From the IMG/VR virus record IMGVR_UViG_3300043410_001428, positions 1-21,426 of that record: DNA of 21,426 nt. The stretch is one strand, 5' to 3'. A model generated the notes under the pieces. The model made no database searches. It saw nothing but the letters and a program-made list of their open reading frames with translations, and had not been told where the DNA came from. A program made the translations under genes and the position numbers. How positions within the stretch are numbered: the stretch's first letter is position 1; every line of letters starts with the position of its first letter. Below are positions 1 through 4,482 of this stretch, piece by piece. The stretch is from a virus.

Positions 1-308
1 TTGTAATAAGACTTCATTTTGAAGGTATTCATTGTTGGGAAAATTGTCCAATAGAAGAAGTTATATTTTTAAAAGACCCACATAGACATTTATTTCATAT
101 AGAATTAATTAAAGAGGTTAATCATAATGATAGAGATATTGAAATAATTATGTTAAAAAGACAAATTTTAAATTATTTAGGAATTCAACCTATACAATTA
201 GGAACTAAAAGTTGTGAAGATATTGCCGAAGATTTATTAAAAAAATTTAAAGCATATAGTGTTATGGTAACTGAGGATGGAGAAAATGGAGCAATAATAA
301 AACTATGA
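1..308 (+). CDS. QueD-like small protein, 5' end outside window
   Basis: The reading frame is open from base 3 to a TGA at 306-308, giving 101 visible residues; the start lies just upstream, and the family is probably only a few residues longer. I recognise the general phage family by its PHRHLFHIE and EDGENGA stretches, but I know no proven function. The motif order matches a QueD T-fold: His10 after an aromatic-x-x-x pattern, then His27-x-His29 (possible zinc ligands), a Ser70-Cys-Glu72-Asp-Ile-Ala stretch like the SAENMA of QueD, and a late Glu91. The catalytic Asp-His pair of QueD is absent. The stop overlaps the next ATG by four bases (ATGA), so it is probably translationally coupled to the glycosyltransferase and the queD-queE-folE genes. 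A role in 7-deazaguanine chemistry is inference; an unrelated HxH protein is the alternative. Confidence 0.75.
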   Translation, partial: VIRLHFEGIHCWENCPIEEVIFLKDPHRHLFHIELIKEVNHNDRDIEIIMLKRQILNYLGIQPIQLGTKSCEDIAEDLLKKFKAYSVMVTEDGENGAIIKL

Positions 309-1267
309 TAATATATTTACCATTAGAAAGTATTGATATGCGTTATACTACGCATTTAGATAGAGATATAAGAGAATACTTAGAAATATATCATAAAAAT
401 AATTATATAATACTTGAACCATTACAAGGAGATGGCAAAATTAATTCAGGTAGTTTTTTAGATGCAGGTCTTACTATTATGTCTAAAAGTAAACAAATAC
501 AAGATTTAGCAAGTTTATATAAAAAAAATATGATAAATGATGACGATATAGTTTTTACTACTGATTTATGGTTTACAGGAATTGAAGCTATTGCATATCT
601 AAATTATTTTTATAAAAAAAATATTAAGTTAAAAGGTATAATACATGCAGGTAGTTTTACCGATACTGATTTTGTTAGAGATATGGAAAGATGGGCTAAA
701 AATTTTGAAGATTGTGTTTTTGATATTGCTAATGAAATTTTTGTAGCAAGTAAATTTATTCAAGAAGATATTATTAAAAAAAGAATGGTAGATGCAAATA
801 AGATTATAGTTAGTGGATTGCCATTAGATTTTAAAAATATGAATAAATATAAAAATAATTTAAGTAAAGAAAATATAATAGTATTTAATGGTAGAAATGT
901 TGATGAAAAACAACCTTGGTTATTTGAACAATTAAAAAATGAACTCCCAAATTATACTTATGTTAATACTCATCAATTAAATTTAAGTAAAGAAGATTAT
1001 TATAAGTTATTATCAAAATCAAAAGTTGTAGTCAGTTTTGCATTACAAGAAAATTTTGGTTATGGCATACAAGAAGCAGTTTATTTAGGATGTATTCCAA
1101 TAGTTCCAAATAAATTAGTATATAAAGAACAATTTGATATAAAGTATAGATATAATAATTTTTTAGAATGTATTAAATTAGTTAATTTAGCTATGAATGA
1201 TAAATTATTAATACCAGAAATAAATATAAAAGAAAATTTTGAAATTTTTAAATATTGGTTTAAATGA
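305..1267 (+). CDS. GT-B fold glycosyltransferase (GT4-like)
   Basis: This 320-residue protein looks like a GT-B glycosyltransferase of the GT4 type. The C-terminal half has a strand-loop stretch SGLPLDF (about 170-176), a donor-domain start near IIVFNGRN (about 191-198), and the typical nucleotide-sugar signature ENFGYGIQEAVYLGCIPIV (about 248-266), where the E-x-FG-x-x-x-x-EA-x-x-x-G pattern holds the donor-binding glutamates. No signal peptide or membrane span is visible, so it is probably cytoplasmic. It overlaps the QueD-like gene upstream and queD downstream by four bases each (ATGA), embedding it in the deazaguanine operon. The acceptor is unknown: a modified DNA base is attractive from context, but phage GT4 enzymes can also modify cell-surface glycans. 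The gene is strikingly AT-rich, with 8 G+C in the 60 bases 841-900, unlike queE and folE. Confidence 0.8.
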   Translation: MIIYLPLESIDMRYTTHLDRDIREYLEIYHKNNYIILEPLQGDGKINSGSFLDAGLTIMSKSKQIQDLASLYKKNMINDDDIVFTTDLWFTGIEAIAYLNYFYKKNIKLKGIIHAGSFTDTDFVRDMERWAKNFEDCVFDIANEIFVASKFIQEDIIKKRMVDANKIIVSGLPLDFKNMNKYKNNLSKENIIVFNGRNVDEKQPWLFEQLKNELPNYTYVNTHQLNLSKEDYYKLLSKSKVVVSFALQENFGYGIQEAVYLGCIPIVPNKLVYKEQFDIKYRYNNFLECIKLVNLAMNDKLLIPEINIKENFEIFKYWFK

Positions 1268-1659
1268 TAATTGAGAAAAAATATCACTTCTATGCAGCAC
1301 ATAGAAATAAGAACGCAGGAGAAAAATGCGGAAGAATACATGGACATACCTACAATGTAGTATGTCATTTTAAGTTTAATGAAATAAAGGATGGAGTTAC
1401 TATGTTATTCTCAGATATAGATAAGATAGTAGAACCAATTATAAAACAGTACGACCACTACTTTCTATTGTATAGAGAAGATAGTTTATGTGATGTTTTA
1501 AATATGGCTAACGAACCTTTCATTGAACTGCCTTTTGAAACTAGTGCAGAGAATATGGCTTTATGGATATTCAATCAAATTAAAACTCATTTGCCAATAG
1601 TTAAGATAGAATTGGCAGAAACCAAATCAAGCAATGTAATATATGAAATTGGCAGTTAG
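1264..1659 (+). CDS. queD: 6-carboxy-5,6,7,8-tetrahydropterin synthase (QueD)
   Basis: QueD converts 7,8-dihydroneopterin triphosphate to 6-carboxy-5,6,7,8-tetrahydropterin, the second step from GTP to 7-deazaguanines, in the cytoplasm. The 131-residue length is normal. All key residues are visible: zinc ligands His13, His26 and His28 (FYAAH and IHGHTYNV), catalytic Cys22, the Asp64-His65 pair, the SAENMA helix (94-99) and the pterin-binding Glu119 followed by Thr. A 6-pyruvoyl-tetrahydropterin synthase is the close relative, but the Cys-Gly-Arg-Ile-His-Gly-His spacing and the queE and folE neighbours favour QueD. Its ATG overlaps the glycosyltransferase stop by four bases, and its 3' end overlaps queE by 17 bases, which indicates translational coupling. 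Confidence 0.95.
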   Translation: MIIEKKYHFYAAHRNKNAGEKCGRIHGHTYNVVCHFKFNEIKDGVTMLFSDIDKIVEPIIKQYDHYFLLYREDSLCDVLNMANEPFIELPFETSAENMALWIFNQIKTHLPIVKIELAETKSSNVIYEIGS

Positions 1660-2365
1660 CGAAGTATTCTATTCTATACAAGGAGAAGGAATGACAACAG
1701 GTTTCCCTGCAGTATTTGTACGACTAGCAGGATGTAACTTAATGTGCGGAGGTAAAGGAACGGAAAAGGATGGCAAATTACATGATGGAGCAACTTGGAG
1801 ATGTGATAGTATTGAGGTATGGATAAAAGGTAAAAGCAAACCTTACGCAGAAATACTACCTATTGAATGTCAAGAAGCAATTAGAAACGGAGCAAATATT
1901 ATCATAACAGGAGGAGAGCCAATGCTTCAACAAAAAAACATAGTAGGATTTATTGAATATTTAGAAACTTTGCATCCTTTCCCTTTTGTAGAGGTAGAAA
2001 CTAATGGAACAATTATGCCTAATGATGATATGTTAGAGTTAGTTTGTCAATGGAATATATCTCCTAAGTTAGCCAATAGCGGTATGCCTAAGGAAGATAG
2101 AATTAATATTGAAGTTTTAAAAAAATTAACTAACTACGATTGCCAATATAAGTTTGTAGTATCAAGCAGAAATGATTGGGAGGAAATAAAACAAGACTTT
2201 TTACCACACTTAGATAAAAGTTATATTACATTGATGCCAGCAGGTAGTAACCAAGAGGAACTAAAAGAAACAAAAGAATTGGTTGCAGAAATATGCAAGG
2301 AAAACTATTTAAGATTAACTAACCGATTACACATAGATATATGGAACAAGAAAACAGGAGTATAA
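1643..2365 (+). CDS. queE: 7-carboxy-7-deazaguanine synthase (QueE), radical SAM
   Basis: QueE is a radical S-adenosylmethionine enzyme that contracts 6-carboxytetrahydropterin to 7-carboxy-7-deazaguanine (CDG). The N-terminus carries the family stretch EVFYSIQGEG (7-16), which binds substrate and SAM, followed by FVRLAGCNLMC. Iron-sulfur cluster cysteines are likely Cys31, Cys35 and Cys54; the third lies 18 residues after the second, in WRCDS, so there is a loop insertion compared with the common C-x3-C-x2-C. ITGGEPMLQ (88-96) is the SAM-binding GGE motif, and VETNGT (about 118-123) and ISPK (139-142) are further QueE signatures. At 240 residues it is slightly longer than many bacterial forms. 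It overlaps queD by 17 and folE by 25 bases. With no queC in view, the product could be CDG itself or be processed by enzymes encoded elsewhere. Confidence 0.95.
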   Translation: MKLAVSEVFYSIQGEGMTTGFPAVFVRLAGCNLMCGGKGTEKDGKLHDGATWRCDSIEVWIKGKSKPYAEILPIECQEAIRNGANIIITGGEPMLQQKNIVGFIEYLETLHPFPFVEVETNGTIMPNDDMLELVCQWNISPKLANSGMPKEDRINIEVLKKLTNYDCQYKFVVSSRNDWEEIKQDFLPHLDKSYITLMPAGSNQEELKETKELVAEICKENYLRLTNRLHIDIWNKKTGV

Positions 2366-2907
2366 GACAATACCAAGAAGGTAGTGCTGAATGGCATTTC
2401 CAAAGTATTTTAGAACAATTAGGAGAAAATCCTCAAAGAGAAGGGTTACAAGAGACACCTAAAAGGTATATAAAGTTTATGAGGGAGTTCCTTGAACCAA
2501 AGGAATTTAACTTTACTAGCTTTGATGCCGAAGGAACGGATGAAATGATAGTACAAAGCAATATACCTTTCTATTCCTTATGCGAACATCATACCGCACC
2601 CTTCTTTGGAACAGGAGTTATTGCCTACATACCTGATAAAAAGATAGTAGGTCTAAGCAAATTGGCTAGAACTTTAGACCTTTTTGCAAATAGATTTCAA
2701 AATCAAGAAAGGATTACAACACAAGTAGCCACAAAAATATGGGAGGAATTAAGTCCAAGAGGAGTGGCAGTAAGCCTAAAAGCACAACACCTTTGTATGT
2801 GTATGCGAGGAGTTAAGAAGCACGATACATGGACTACAACTACCAAACTATTAGGAGTATTCAAAGAGGATGATAAAGCTAGGGCAGAATTCCTTAGATA
2901 TATCTAA
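2341..2907 (+). CDS. folE: GTP cyclohydrolase I (FolE)
   Basis: GTP cyclohydrolase I opens and rearranges GTP to 7,8-dihydroneopterin triphosphate, the substrate of QueD. The 188 residues form a complete enzyme. Zinc ligands are Cys81 and His84 in SLCEHH and Cys152 in HLCMCMRG; catalytic histidines are His83 and His150. The signature blocks IVGLSKLAR (102-110) and QNQERITTQ (120-128) are intact, as is the N-terminal REGLQETPKR (33-42). Although last in the cassette, it encodes the first enzyme of the pathway, so the phage can raise flux from GTP without the host enzyme. The start overlaps queE by 25 bases. The terminase small subunit begins 17 bases after the stop, with no terminator between, so packaging genes are probably on the same transcript. 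Confidence 0.96.
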   Translation: MEQENRSIRQYQEGSAEWHFQSILEQLGENPQREGLQETPKRYIKFMREFLEPKEFNFTSFDAEGTDEMIVQSNIPFYSLCEHHTAPFFGTGVIAYIPDKKIVGLSKLARTLDLFANRFQNQERITTQVATKIWEELSPRGVAVSLKAQHLCMCMRGVKKHDTWTTTTKLLGVFKEDDKARAEFLRYI

Positions 2908-2924
2908 AACAGAACAATAACAGA

Positions 2925-3329
2925 ATGAGCAAAGAACATTTGATACCATTTAAAAAAGGGCAAAGTGGCAATCCAAAAGGTCGCCCAAGAAAGTATGTCA
3001 GCCTTTTAAAGGAGCAGGGATACAAAGTAAGTGAGGTAAATGATGCCATCCAAGCAATGATGTCTATGACCTTTGATGAGTTAAAGGAAGTATTCAATGA
3101 TGAAAGTGCAACAATATTAGAAAAGACAATTGCCAATGCTATGAAGAAGTCATTGGAGAAGGGCAGTCTTTACTCATTAGACACCCTTTTAACGAGGGTT
3201 TATGGCAAACCTAGGGAAACTATCGACACAAACAATAAAACCGAACTAAAGGGCAGAATAGAGGTAGTAGTGAATAAAAGTGATGTTCCTTTATCAAACA
3301 GAGAAACGGATGTAGATGTTAGCAGATAA
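2925..3329 (+). CDS. Probable terminase small subunit (DUF5681-like N-terminus)
   Basis: This 134-residue protein lies directly before the large terminase and overlaps it by 14 bases, the usual position of the DNA-recognising small subunit. The N-terminus has the basic stretch FKKGQSGNPKGRPRK (9-23), characteristic of DUF5681, a family common beside phage terminases. The middle (about 35-95) is predicted to be helical, including EKTIANAMKKSLEKG and DTLLTRVYGKPRE, similar to the C-terminal part of many small terminases; the tail is polar. No classical helix-turn-helix is obvious by eye, so the function rests on position and the DUF5681 motif. There is no Shine-Dalgarno sequence before the ATG. 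Confidence 0.75.
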   Translation: MSKEHLIPFKKGQSGNPKGRPRKYVSLLKEQGYKVSEVNDAIQAMMSMTFDELKEVFNDESATILEKTIANAMKKSLEKGSLYSLDTLLTRVYGKPRETIDTNNKTELKGRIEVVVNKSDVPLSNRETDVDVSR

Positions 3330-4482
3330 CAAACTATTTGAAACAAGTGTTGTTTTTGAAAGCAACCGCAACTCCTTAGCTGATATTGTAGTCAATCAGG
3401 GAGGAACTTCAAGCGGTAAGACCTATAGTATCTTGCAGAACCTTTTCCTTCATGCCATTGAGGATGACAATCAAGTAATTACAATAGTAGGGCAGGATAT
3501 TCCTAACTTAAAGGTAGGTGCCTTGCGTGATGCCCAAACAATATTAGAGAAGTCCGAGATATTGCAGTCCTTTGTTGCTGATTTTAATAAAAGCGACAGG
3601 ATTTATACCTTTATCAATGGTTCTATAATGGAGTTTAAAAGCTACGAGGATGCTCAGGATGCTAAGTCAGGTAAAAGGGATTACCTATTTGTAAACGAAG
3701 CCAATGGTATCACTAAGGATATATTTGATGAATTGTATATAAGAACAAAGCATAAGACATATTTAGATTACAACCCTAACATAGAATTTTGGGTGCATCA
3801 TGAACTAATAGGTAAACCAAATGTGGAGTTAATAATTAGCGACCATAGGCACAACCCTTTCCTTGATGCAAAAATACACGAGAAGATAGAAGCGATTGAG
3901 GATGAGGAATTGTGGAAGGTATATGCAAGAGGATTAACAGGTAAATTAGAGGGAGTTATCTTTAGGGATTATAATGTAATTACAAATGTTAGCTTGGATG
4001 CTAAACTAATAGGATATGGTTTAGACTTTGGATTTACCAACGACCCTACTGCCCTTATTGCAGTTTATAGCCAAAGTGGAGAATTAGTCTTAGATGAATT
4101 AATTTATGAAAAAGGTCTTTTGAATGTTAGAATATCTGACAGGATGCGAGAATTGTCAGTTGCAGGGAGAATCATTGCAGATTCCGCAGAGCCTAAAAGT
4201 ATCTCGGAGTTGCAAGGATACGGATGGATGGTCGAACCTGCCCAAAAAGGTAGGGATAGTATTAAACAATCCATAAATATCCTTAAACGCTACAAATTGA
4301 ATGTTACTCAAAGAAGCCACAACCTCAAAAAGGAACTAAATAACTATAAATGGAAGCAAAATAGGGATGGAAGGCTAGAGAACGAGCCTGTGGATTTCCT
4401 AAACCATAGTATAGATGCAGTACGATATGTGTGCTTAAATGCCCTAAATAATGTATCTGAGGGCAAATATAGTTTCGTTTAA
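3316..4482 (+). CDS. terL: Terminase large subunit (ATPase-nuclease)
   Basis: This is the DNA-packaging motor and headful or cohesive-end nuclease, 388 residues. The N-terminal ATPase domain has a Walker A GGTSSGKT (29-36), with Lys35 as the phosphate-binding lysine, and a Walker B strand YLFVNEAN (123-130) with Glu128 as candidate catalytic acid. The C-terminal RNase H-like nuclease has Asp237 in LDFGFTNDPTA, Asp289 in IIADSAEP and Asp367 in LNHSIDAVRYV, the expected three acidic residues. It is a little short for the family but complete. It follows the small subunit with a 14-base overlap. The gene is followed by a 136-base region rich in dyads, not by the portal gene as usual. Confidence 0.95.
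   Translation: MLADNKLFETSVVFESNRNSLADIVVNQGGTSSGKTYSILQNLFLHAIEDDNQVITIVGQDIPNLKVGALRDAQTILEKSEILQSFVADFNKSDRIYTFINGSIMEFKSYEDAQDAKSGKRDYLFVNEANGITKDIFDELYIRTKHKTYLDYNPNIEFWVHHELIGKPNVELIISDHRHNPFLDAKIHEKIEAIEDEELWKVYARGLTGKLEGVIFRDYNVITNVSLDAKLIGYGLDFGFTNDPTALIAVYSQSGELVLDELIYEKGLLNVRISDRMRELSVAGRIIADSAEPKSISELQGYGWMVEPAQKGRDSIKQSINILKRYKLNVTQRSHNLKKELNNYKWKQNRDGRLENEPVDFLNHSIDAVRYVCLNALNNVSEGKYSFV

Follow-up and report, generated by a model that had tools for sequence, protein, structure and literature searches.

FolE, QueD and QueE convert guanosine triphosphate (GTP) into 7-carboxy-7-deazaguanine (CDG) by an established pathway. A branch that proceeds from CDG to dDG and dCDG without QueC, and that involves DpdL, is said to have been described by Cui et al. 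in 2023, reportedly with no glycosyltransferase. In the phage systems presented in Hutinet 2019 (PMC6884629), DpdA-dependent 7-deazaguanine modification of DNA leads to dG+ in phage 9g and to dPreQ0 in phage CAjan. Phage 7-deazaguanine DNA has so far been known with small 7-substituents. Here we describe a related gene cassette at the left end of a linear IMG/VR virus record (IMGVR_UViG_3300043410_001428) of 21,426 bases, the whole of which was analyzed and is referred to as the window. Like the 9g and CAjan systems, the cassette clusters FolE, QueD and QueE and, in relatives of the window, a transglycosylase resembling tRNA-guanine transglycosylase (TGT); unlike them, it has a reading frame designated ORF1 in place of QueC, plus a dedicated glycosyltransferase (GT). 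We regard it as a QueC-independent, probably glycosylating variant of the DpdA systems, and its gene content suggests that the phage probably carries DNA with a sugar-decorated 7-deazaguanine made independently of QueC.

The cassette genes in the window are the following:

3 to 308, plus strand: ORF1, truncated at its 5' end by the contig end, a QueD/PTPS-fold (T-fold) paralogue of PHROG 17812 (phrog_17812, 1.3e-22)
305 to 1267, plus strand: glycosyltransferase (ORF2, GT), a retaining GT-B, GT4-like enzyme predicted to sugar a deazaguanine base
1264 to 1659, plus strand: QueD, 6-carboxytetrahydropterin synthase (PF01242, 4.7e-24; TIGR03367, 9.9e-20, under the TIGR03367 cut-off)
1643 to 2365, plus strand: QueE, radical S-adenosylmethionine (SAM) CDG synthase (phrog_2076, 3.1e-54)
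2341 to 2907, plus strand: FolE, GTP cyclohydrolase I (PF01227, 2.8e-61; TIGR00063, above cut-off)

Neighboring genes overlap by 4 (ORF1/GT), 4 (GT/QueD), 17 (QueD/QueE) and 25 bases (QueE/FolE), and a gap of 17 bases separates the end of FolE from the gene for a putative small terminase. The synthesis genes FolE, QueD and QueE, which are those of DpdA-type 7-deazaguanine systems, are complete and retain catalytic residues that are conserved across 96 to 110 relatives per family: C22, H26, D64, H65, E96 and E119 in QueD, C31, C35, C54 and the GGEP motif in QueE, and C81, H83, H84, H150, C152, Q122 and E123 in FolE. A preliminary description of the window had reported these three genes as intact, joined by overlaps of 4 to 25 bases and followed by terminase 17 bases further on, and had seen neither QueC nor DpdA; all of this agrees with our analysis. 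Its inventory of bases 1 to 2907 did, however, overlook ORF1 and GT, and this omission changes the predicted product.

Neither QueC (PF06508) nor a transglycosylase was found within the 21,426 bases. No isolate phage gave a megablast match to the window, and an exact-match scan returned no contig continuing upstream of its left end. In IMG/VR relatives the usual gene order is ParB-like, DpdA-like, ORF1, GT, QueD, QueE, FolE and the small and large terminases (TerS and TerL). The transglycosylase that stands beside ORF1 in these relatives matches phrog_887 (5e-31), and its D-S-G, H and D-S residues are invariant; these transglycosylases are recognized by neither Pfam nor NCBIfam. The best explanation of the segment is that it forms the downstream portion of a phage cassette for DNA modification, the transglycosylase gene of which probably lies just beyond the left end of the contig. 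The preliminary description had suggested reading the flanks for DpdA and QueC, and the relatives supply the first directly upstream of ORF1, whereas the second is absent where ORF1 is present. Its assignment to a 7-deazaguanine DNA-modification cassette is well supported, while the predicted product needs to be revised to one that is QueC-independent and probably glycosylated. Three further TGT-like classes, of about 519, 425 and 277 amino acids, occur in other ORF1 loci, and in two Streptomyces loci with ORF1 no transglycosylase was recognized nearby by profiles. On bacterial contigs of Magnetospirillum (L149-L152, e.g. L150:8793-12875) we observed GT, ORF1, a transglycosylase-like gene of the 519-residue class and QueD, with an open reading frame that by eye resembles a recombinase a few kilobases downstream; this set may be a cellular counterpart of the cassette, carried on a genomic island.

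ORF1 is recognized by neither Pfam nor NCBIfam, and its sole match is to PHROG 17812, a family listed as unknown. Its sequence profile gave only chance matches against the PDB, and in a profile-profile comparison with QueD the similarity was weak (E 1e-4) and confined to a C-terminal motif. With sequence searches this weak, it was the fold search that settled the kinship to QueD and PTPS. An AlphaFold2 model of a full-length homologue (L002, mean pLDDT, i.e. predicted local distance difference test, 95.0) has QueD and PTPS as its nearest solved structures, with a Foldseek value of 1.8e-5 for E. coli QueD and a VIA structure comparison giving Z 11.7 and 2.5 Å over 103 residues. In 60 sequences of the family H10, H27, H29, R44, E47, S70-C71-E72 and E91 are invariant, a conservation pattern of three histidines, an arginine, a glutamate, Ser-Cys-Glu and a late Glu-Asp. 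ORF1 thus shares with the QueD/PTPS family the T-fold and three metal-type histidines, but it differs in having a separate invariant set, R, E and S-C-E, and in that the catalytic cysteine and Asp-His pair of QueD (C22, D64 and H65) are not among its conserved columns. As most cassettes related to that of the window also contain a separate QueD, ORF1 is best read as a QueD paralogue with altered chemistry rather than as a spare QueD. In the Chryseobacterium phage MA9V-3 (L064:9449-10330) an N-terminal part with matches to endonuclease VII/HNH families precedes ORF1, which makes up the C-terminal part of the same protein, and in 23 ORF1 loci a gene with a phosphoribosyltransferase domain lies in or near the cassette (e.g. 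L147:15694-16152). Homologues were also seen in Paractinoplanes ferrugineus (L160:9093-15888), beside QueD/FolE/QueE and sugar-nucleotide genes, and in Streptomyces sp. NEAU-Y11 (L163:9896-13542), beside QueD/FolE, a deaminase and a flavin adenine dinucleotide (FAD) oxidase; both are possible natural-product or island versions.

The relation of ORF1 to QueC was examined in a locus search seeded with QueE and blind to both genes. The two never co-occurred among these loci (0/16 versus 10/12, Fisher 5e-6), and the exclusion persisted after thinning by QueE similarity (0/11 versus 9/9). With a QueC model applied to full records, QueC was absent from the complete genomes of six ORF1 isolates, namely PA5oct, BUCT-ZZ01, Phosso, ACP17, MA9V-3 and phiST, whereas the controls, phiSM and three records with QueC cassettes, scored 1e-60 or better; three ORF1 viral records and the metagenome-assembled genome (MAG) that contains locus L142 gave no more than weak partial matches. 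The QueC that characterizes preQ0-branch DpdA phages is therefore lacking from the window, from its ORF1 relatives and from the six isolates, and the distribution indicates that ORF1 replaces QueC in this cassette type. For that reason preQ0, one of the products the preliminary description had considered, is unlikely to be made by the phage. We infer that ORF1 is a CDG-processing enzyme standing where sister cassettes have QueC. A first guess at its reaction would be decarboxylation of CDG to 7-deazaguanine, and the layout in phiST, with ORF1 but neither QueC nor an adjacent GT, fits a CDG decarboxylase. In this respect the cassette resembles the DpdL branch, which likewise leaves CDG without QueC, and ORF1 is possibly DpdL itself; the glycosyltransferase sets the window apart from that branch as reported. 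In locus L039 a frame that by eye resembles a SAM methyltransferase (L039:6841-7416) occupies the interval in which its close relative L042 has QueC.

The GT was modeled by AlphaFold2 with a pLDDT of 92.4, and in VIA the model gave Z 24.4 to BshA, with many GT4 enzymes tied. It has the GT-B fold and keeps, as invariant residues, the EX7E motif (E249/E257) and the R/K donor-phosphate pair (R197, K202) of retaining GT4 enzymes, with E257, R197 and K202 conserved also across 89 relatives; the Pfam score itself lies under the curated cut-off. We predict an intact-looking retaining GT-B (GT4-like) enzyme and a putative DNA-base glycosyltransferase. The alternative that survives best, although we consider it unlikely, is that DNA contains plain 7-deazaguanine or CDG and that GT is a passenger acting on a host surface glycan, another base or a protein. 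Its top structural neighbors are indeed ordinary GT4 enzymes, cassettes with ORF1 alone exist in phiST and in loci of the L018 type, and clusters of nucleoside diphosphate (NDP)-sugar genes elsewhere in phages are interpreted in one comparative report (PMC7824862) as surface-glycan modifiers. The gene associations argue otherwise. In a GT-seeded scan across unrelated phages, ORF1 and a transglycosylase accompanied GT in 53/53 interior loci and QueC in none, and in an ORF1-seeded scan GT lay at most 4 kb away in 42 of 51 loci, where each scan covers the best 80 loci at most and its counts are not frequencies. GT is missing from QueC cassettes and follows the transglycosylase class, being present in 42/42 loci of the 519- and 425-residue classes and in 0/12 of the 277-residue class, while the first class, that of the phrog_887 match, is divided by subclade. 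Moreover, the residues invariant throughout the family lie in its N-terminal, acceptor-side half. These associations suggest that GT is part of the deazaguanine pathway. A nicotinamide adenine dinucleotide (NAD)-dependent epimerase, a DegT-type aminotransferase and a cytidylyltransferase were found in 20, 15 and 8 GT-cassette loci, respectively, versus 1, 1 and 1 without GT; none of these sugar genes is in the window. SPASM radical-SAM genes lie between ORF1 and GT in two loci (L007:4037-4795 and L047:12095-13144), which fits further base tailoring in some phages.

In the mechanism that we propose, FolE, QueD and QueE, identified by homology, would produce CDG from GTP, and CDG would bypass preQ0 to be processed by ORF1. 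A DpdA-type transglycosylase, as judged from the relatives, would then swap guanine in DNA for the resulting base, and the retaining GT-B enzyme would subsequently move a sugar from an NDP-sugar onto the inserted base. If ORF1 is a decarboxylase, 7-deazaguanine would serve as acceptor and would have to receive the sugar on carbon 7 or at some other unusual position, while with a different ORF1 chemistry an ordinary O- or N-glycoside would be possible. The most specific form of this scheme, in which ORF1 decarboxylates CDG, DpdA inserts 7-deazaguanine and GT sugars carbon 7 or another ring atom to give a C-glycosylated DNA base, is conceivable though not what we would expect; if true, it would define a chemically new kind of DNA hypermodification, present in several isolates and in hundreds of phages that have not been cultured.

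Several points weigh against a glycosylated DNA base. Unsubstituted 7-deazaguanine, if this is the ORF1 product, offers no obvious side chain for glycosylation, and the mechanism is proposed from gene content and predicted folds. The window, being cut at its left end, is without a transglycosylase, and in the Sinorhizobium phage Phosso, which has ORF1 and GT, profiles recognized none nearby. The DpdA-like motifs are common to the DNA-guanine transglycosylase of PDB entry 7ui4, but the sequence match is weak (E 0.063). Assignment of the 519-, 425- and 277-residue classes is by motif and profile comparison only (profile-profile E 5e-5 for the 519-residue class and 5.6e-6 for the 277-residue class versus the first class, and 7e-11 for the 425- versus the 519-residue class). 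Finally, the loci are mutually related, so that P values are indicative only.

Three other explanations compete with that of a glycosylated DNA base. A host QueC might turn phage CDG into preQ0, with DNA bearing preQ0 or its derivatives and ORF1 acting elsewhere. Many bacteria do encode QueC, and Hutinet et al. (PMC6884629) mention that hosts may contribute to phage modification. Nevertheless, the QueC-using sister cassettes encode their own QueC and belong to a different DpdA clade, and the mutual exclusion of ORF1 and QueC also renders this explanation improbable.

The base or its glycoside might instead enter host or phage tRNA. FolE, QueD and QueE also serve queuosine synthesis for tRNA, and in animal tRNA mannosyl- and galactosyl-queuosine glycosyltransferases attach the sugar to the cyclopentene diol of queuosine, for which the present cassettes contain no genes; the resemblance to our proposal is that a 7-deazaguanine-derived nucleoside is glycosylated. 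Moreover, phrog_887 is named a queuine tRNA-ribosyltransferase. Cassettes with ORF1, however, lack QueC, and among solved structures the one closest to the transglycosylase in sequence is, by the weak match given above, a DNA enzyme. In the study of Hutinet et al. (PMC6884629), QueA, QueG and QueH were not found in viruses, and we consider a tRNA target highly improbable. The idea of a pterin glycoside unconnected with DNA, made by FolE, the PTPS-fold ORF1 and GT in analogy to cyanobacterial tetrahydrobiopterin glucosides, can draw on uridine diphosphate (UDP)-glucose:tetrahydrobiopterin glucosyltransferases among the structural neighbors of GT (5zes, Z 21.4; 9v0l, Z 21.5), but these score below BshA and are tied with many GT4 enzymes, the cassettes hold QueE and a transglycosylase, and ORF1 does not conserve the Cys and Asp-His of QueD, so that we give it hardly any credence.

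A sugar-bearing 7-deazaguanine in DNA, if true, would unite base replacement with DNA glycosylation and place a bulky group on guanine. Among the titles and abstracts listed by searches of open-access literature, none described glycosylated 7-deazaguanine in phage DNA. A close parallel for the last step is found in the alpha- and beta-glucosyltransferase type enzymes (alpha-GT/beta-GT) of T-even phages as treated in PMC13216743, which are likewise GT-B enzymes, with a modified DNA base as acceptor, as proposed here, and variants swapped among close relatives; their acceptor is 5-hydroxymethylcytosine rather than the 7-deazaguanine predicted here. Matching stretches number at least about 600 each for ORF1 and GT. 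Cultured phages with the ORF1 and GT cassette include PA5oct and its relatives, ACP17, BUCT-ZZ01 and Phosso, and for PA5oct earlier comparative work (PMC7824862) noted a deazaguanine synthesis and incorporation system, the GT not being named in the account given there. These carriers make the prediction directly testable by mass spectrometry. We further propose a role for PHROG 17812, and transglycosylase class as a predictor of the product.

To follow the inheritance of the tailoring genes, the labels ORF1+GT, ORF1 alone and QueC were mapped on gene trees. On the DpdA tree 3 label changes sufficed (shuffled mean 16.2), and a slower DpdA tree including two loci with neither ORF1 nor QueC gave 4, whereas the QueE, QueD and TerL trees required 11, 11 and 9 (shuffled 16.6, 16.1 and 11.5). 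Co-inheritance of the tailoring genes with the phage backbone was rejected on account of this conflict. Since the DpdA clade tracks the tailoring genes and QueE, QueD and TerL do not, the trees indicate that DpdA-ORF1-GT is a module that passes from phage to phage, which would be expected were host nucleases to select on the final modification. The window itself contains one edge of such an exchange:

1255 to 1265, no strand: module junction, with GT/ORF1 exchanged upstream and QueD to TerL near-identical to locus L019 downstream

The identity to L019 is about 53% over GT; from QueD to TerL it is mostly 95 to 100%, falling to 82% in the middle of QueE, and the step lies at about base 1261. The GT of L019 belongs to the same profile family as that of the window but shares only 24% identity with it. 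Matches to L020, L048, L022 and L018 begin at 1261, and L142, from a Flavobacterium MAG, matches the window only to the left of 1261 and ends there. Locus L018 (L018:9128-9622), whose QueD and QueE are 92% and 84% identical to those of the window, contains ORF1 but lacks GT, and its DpdA is followed by a Vut_1-like putative transporter gene.

Downstream of FolE the window continues with two neighbors outside the pathway:

2925 to 3329, plus strand: DUF5681 protein, putative small terminase, TerS (PF18932, 9.9e-11)
3316 to 4482, plus strand: large terminase, TerL (PF17288, 2.8e-15; PF04466, 1.5e-9)

From this direct linkage the preliminary description had deduced that modified DNA is the packaging substrate. 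In PA5oct, ACP17, BUCT-ZZ01, Phosso and phiST, however, the same cassette sits apart from the annotated terminase genes, and the fit of the tailoring labels to the TerL tree (9 changes versus 11.5) is barely better than chance. We therefore reject the adjacency, missing as it is in the isolates, as evidence for packaging; the linkage between cassette and terminase is lineage-specific synteny.

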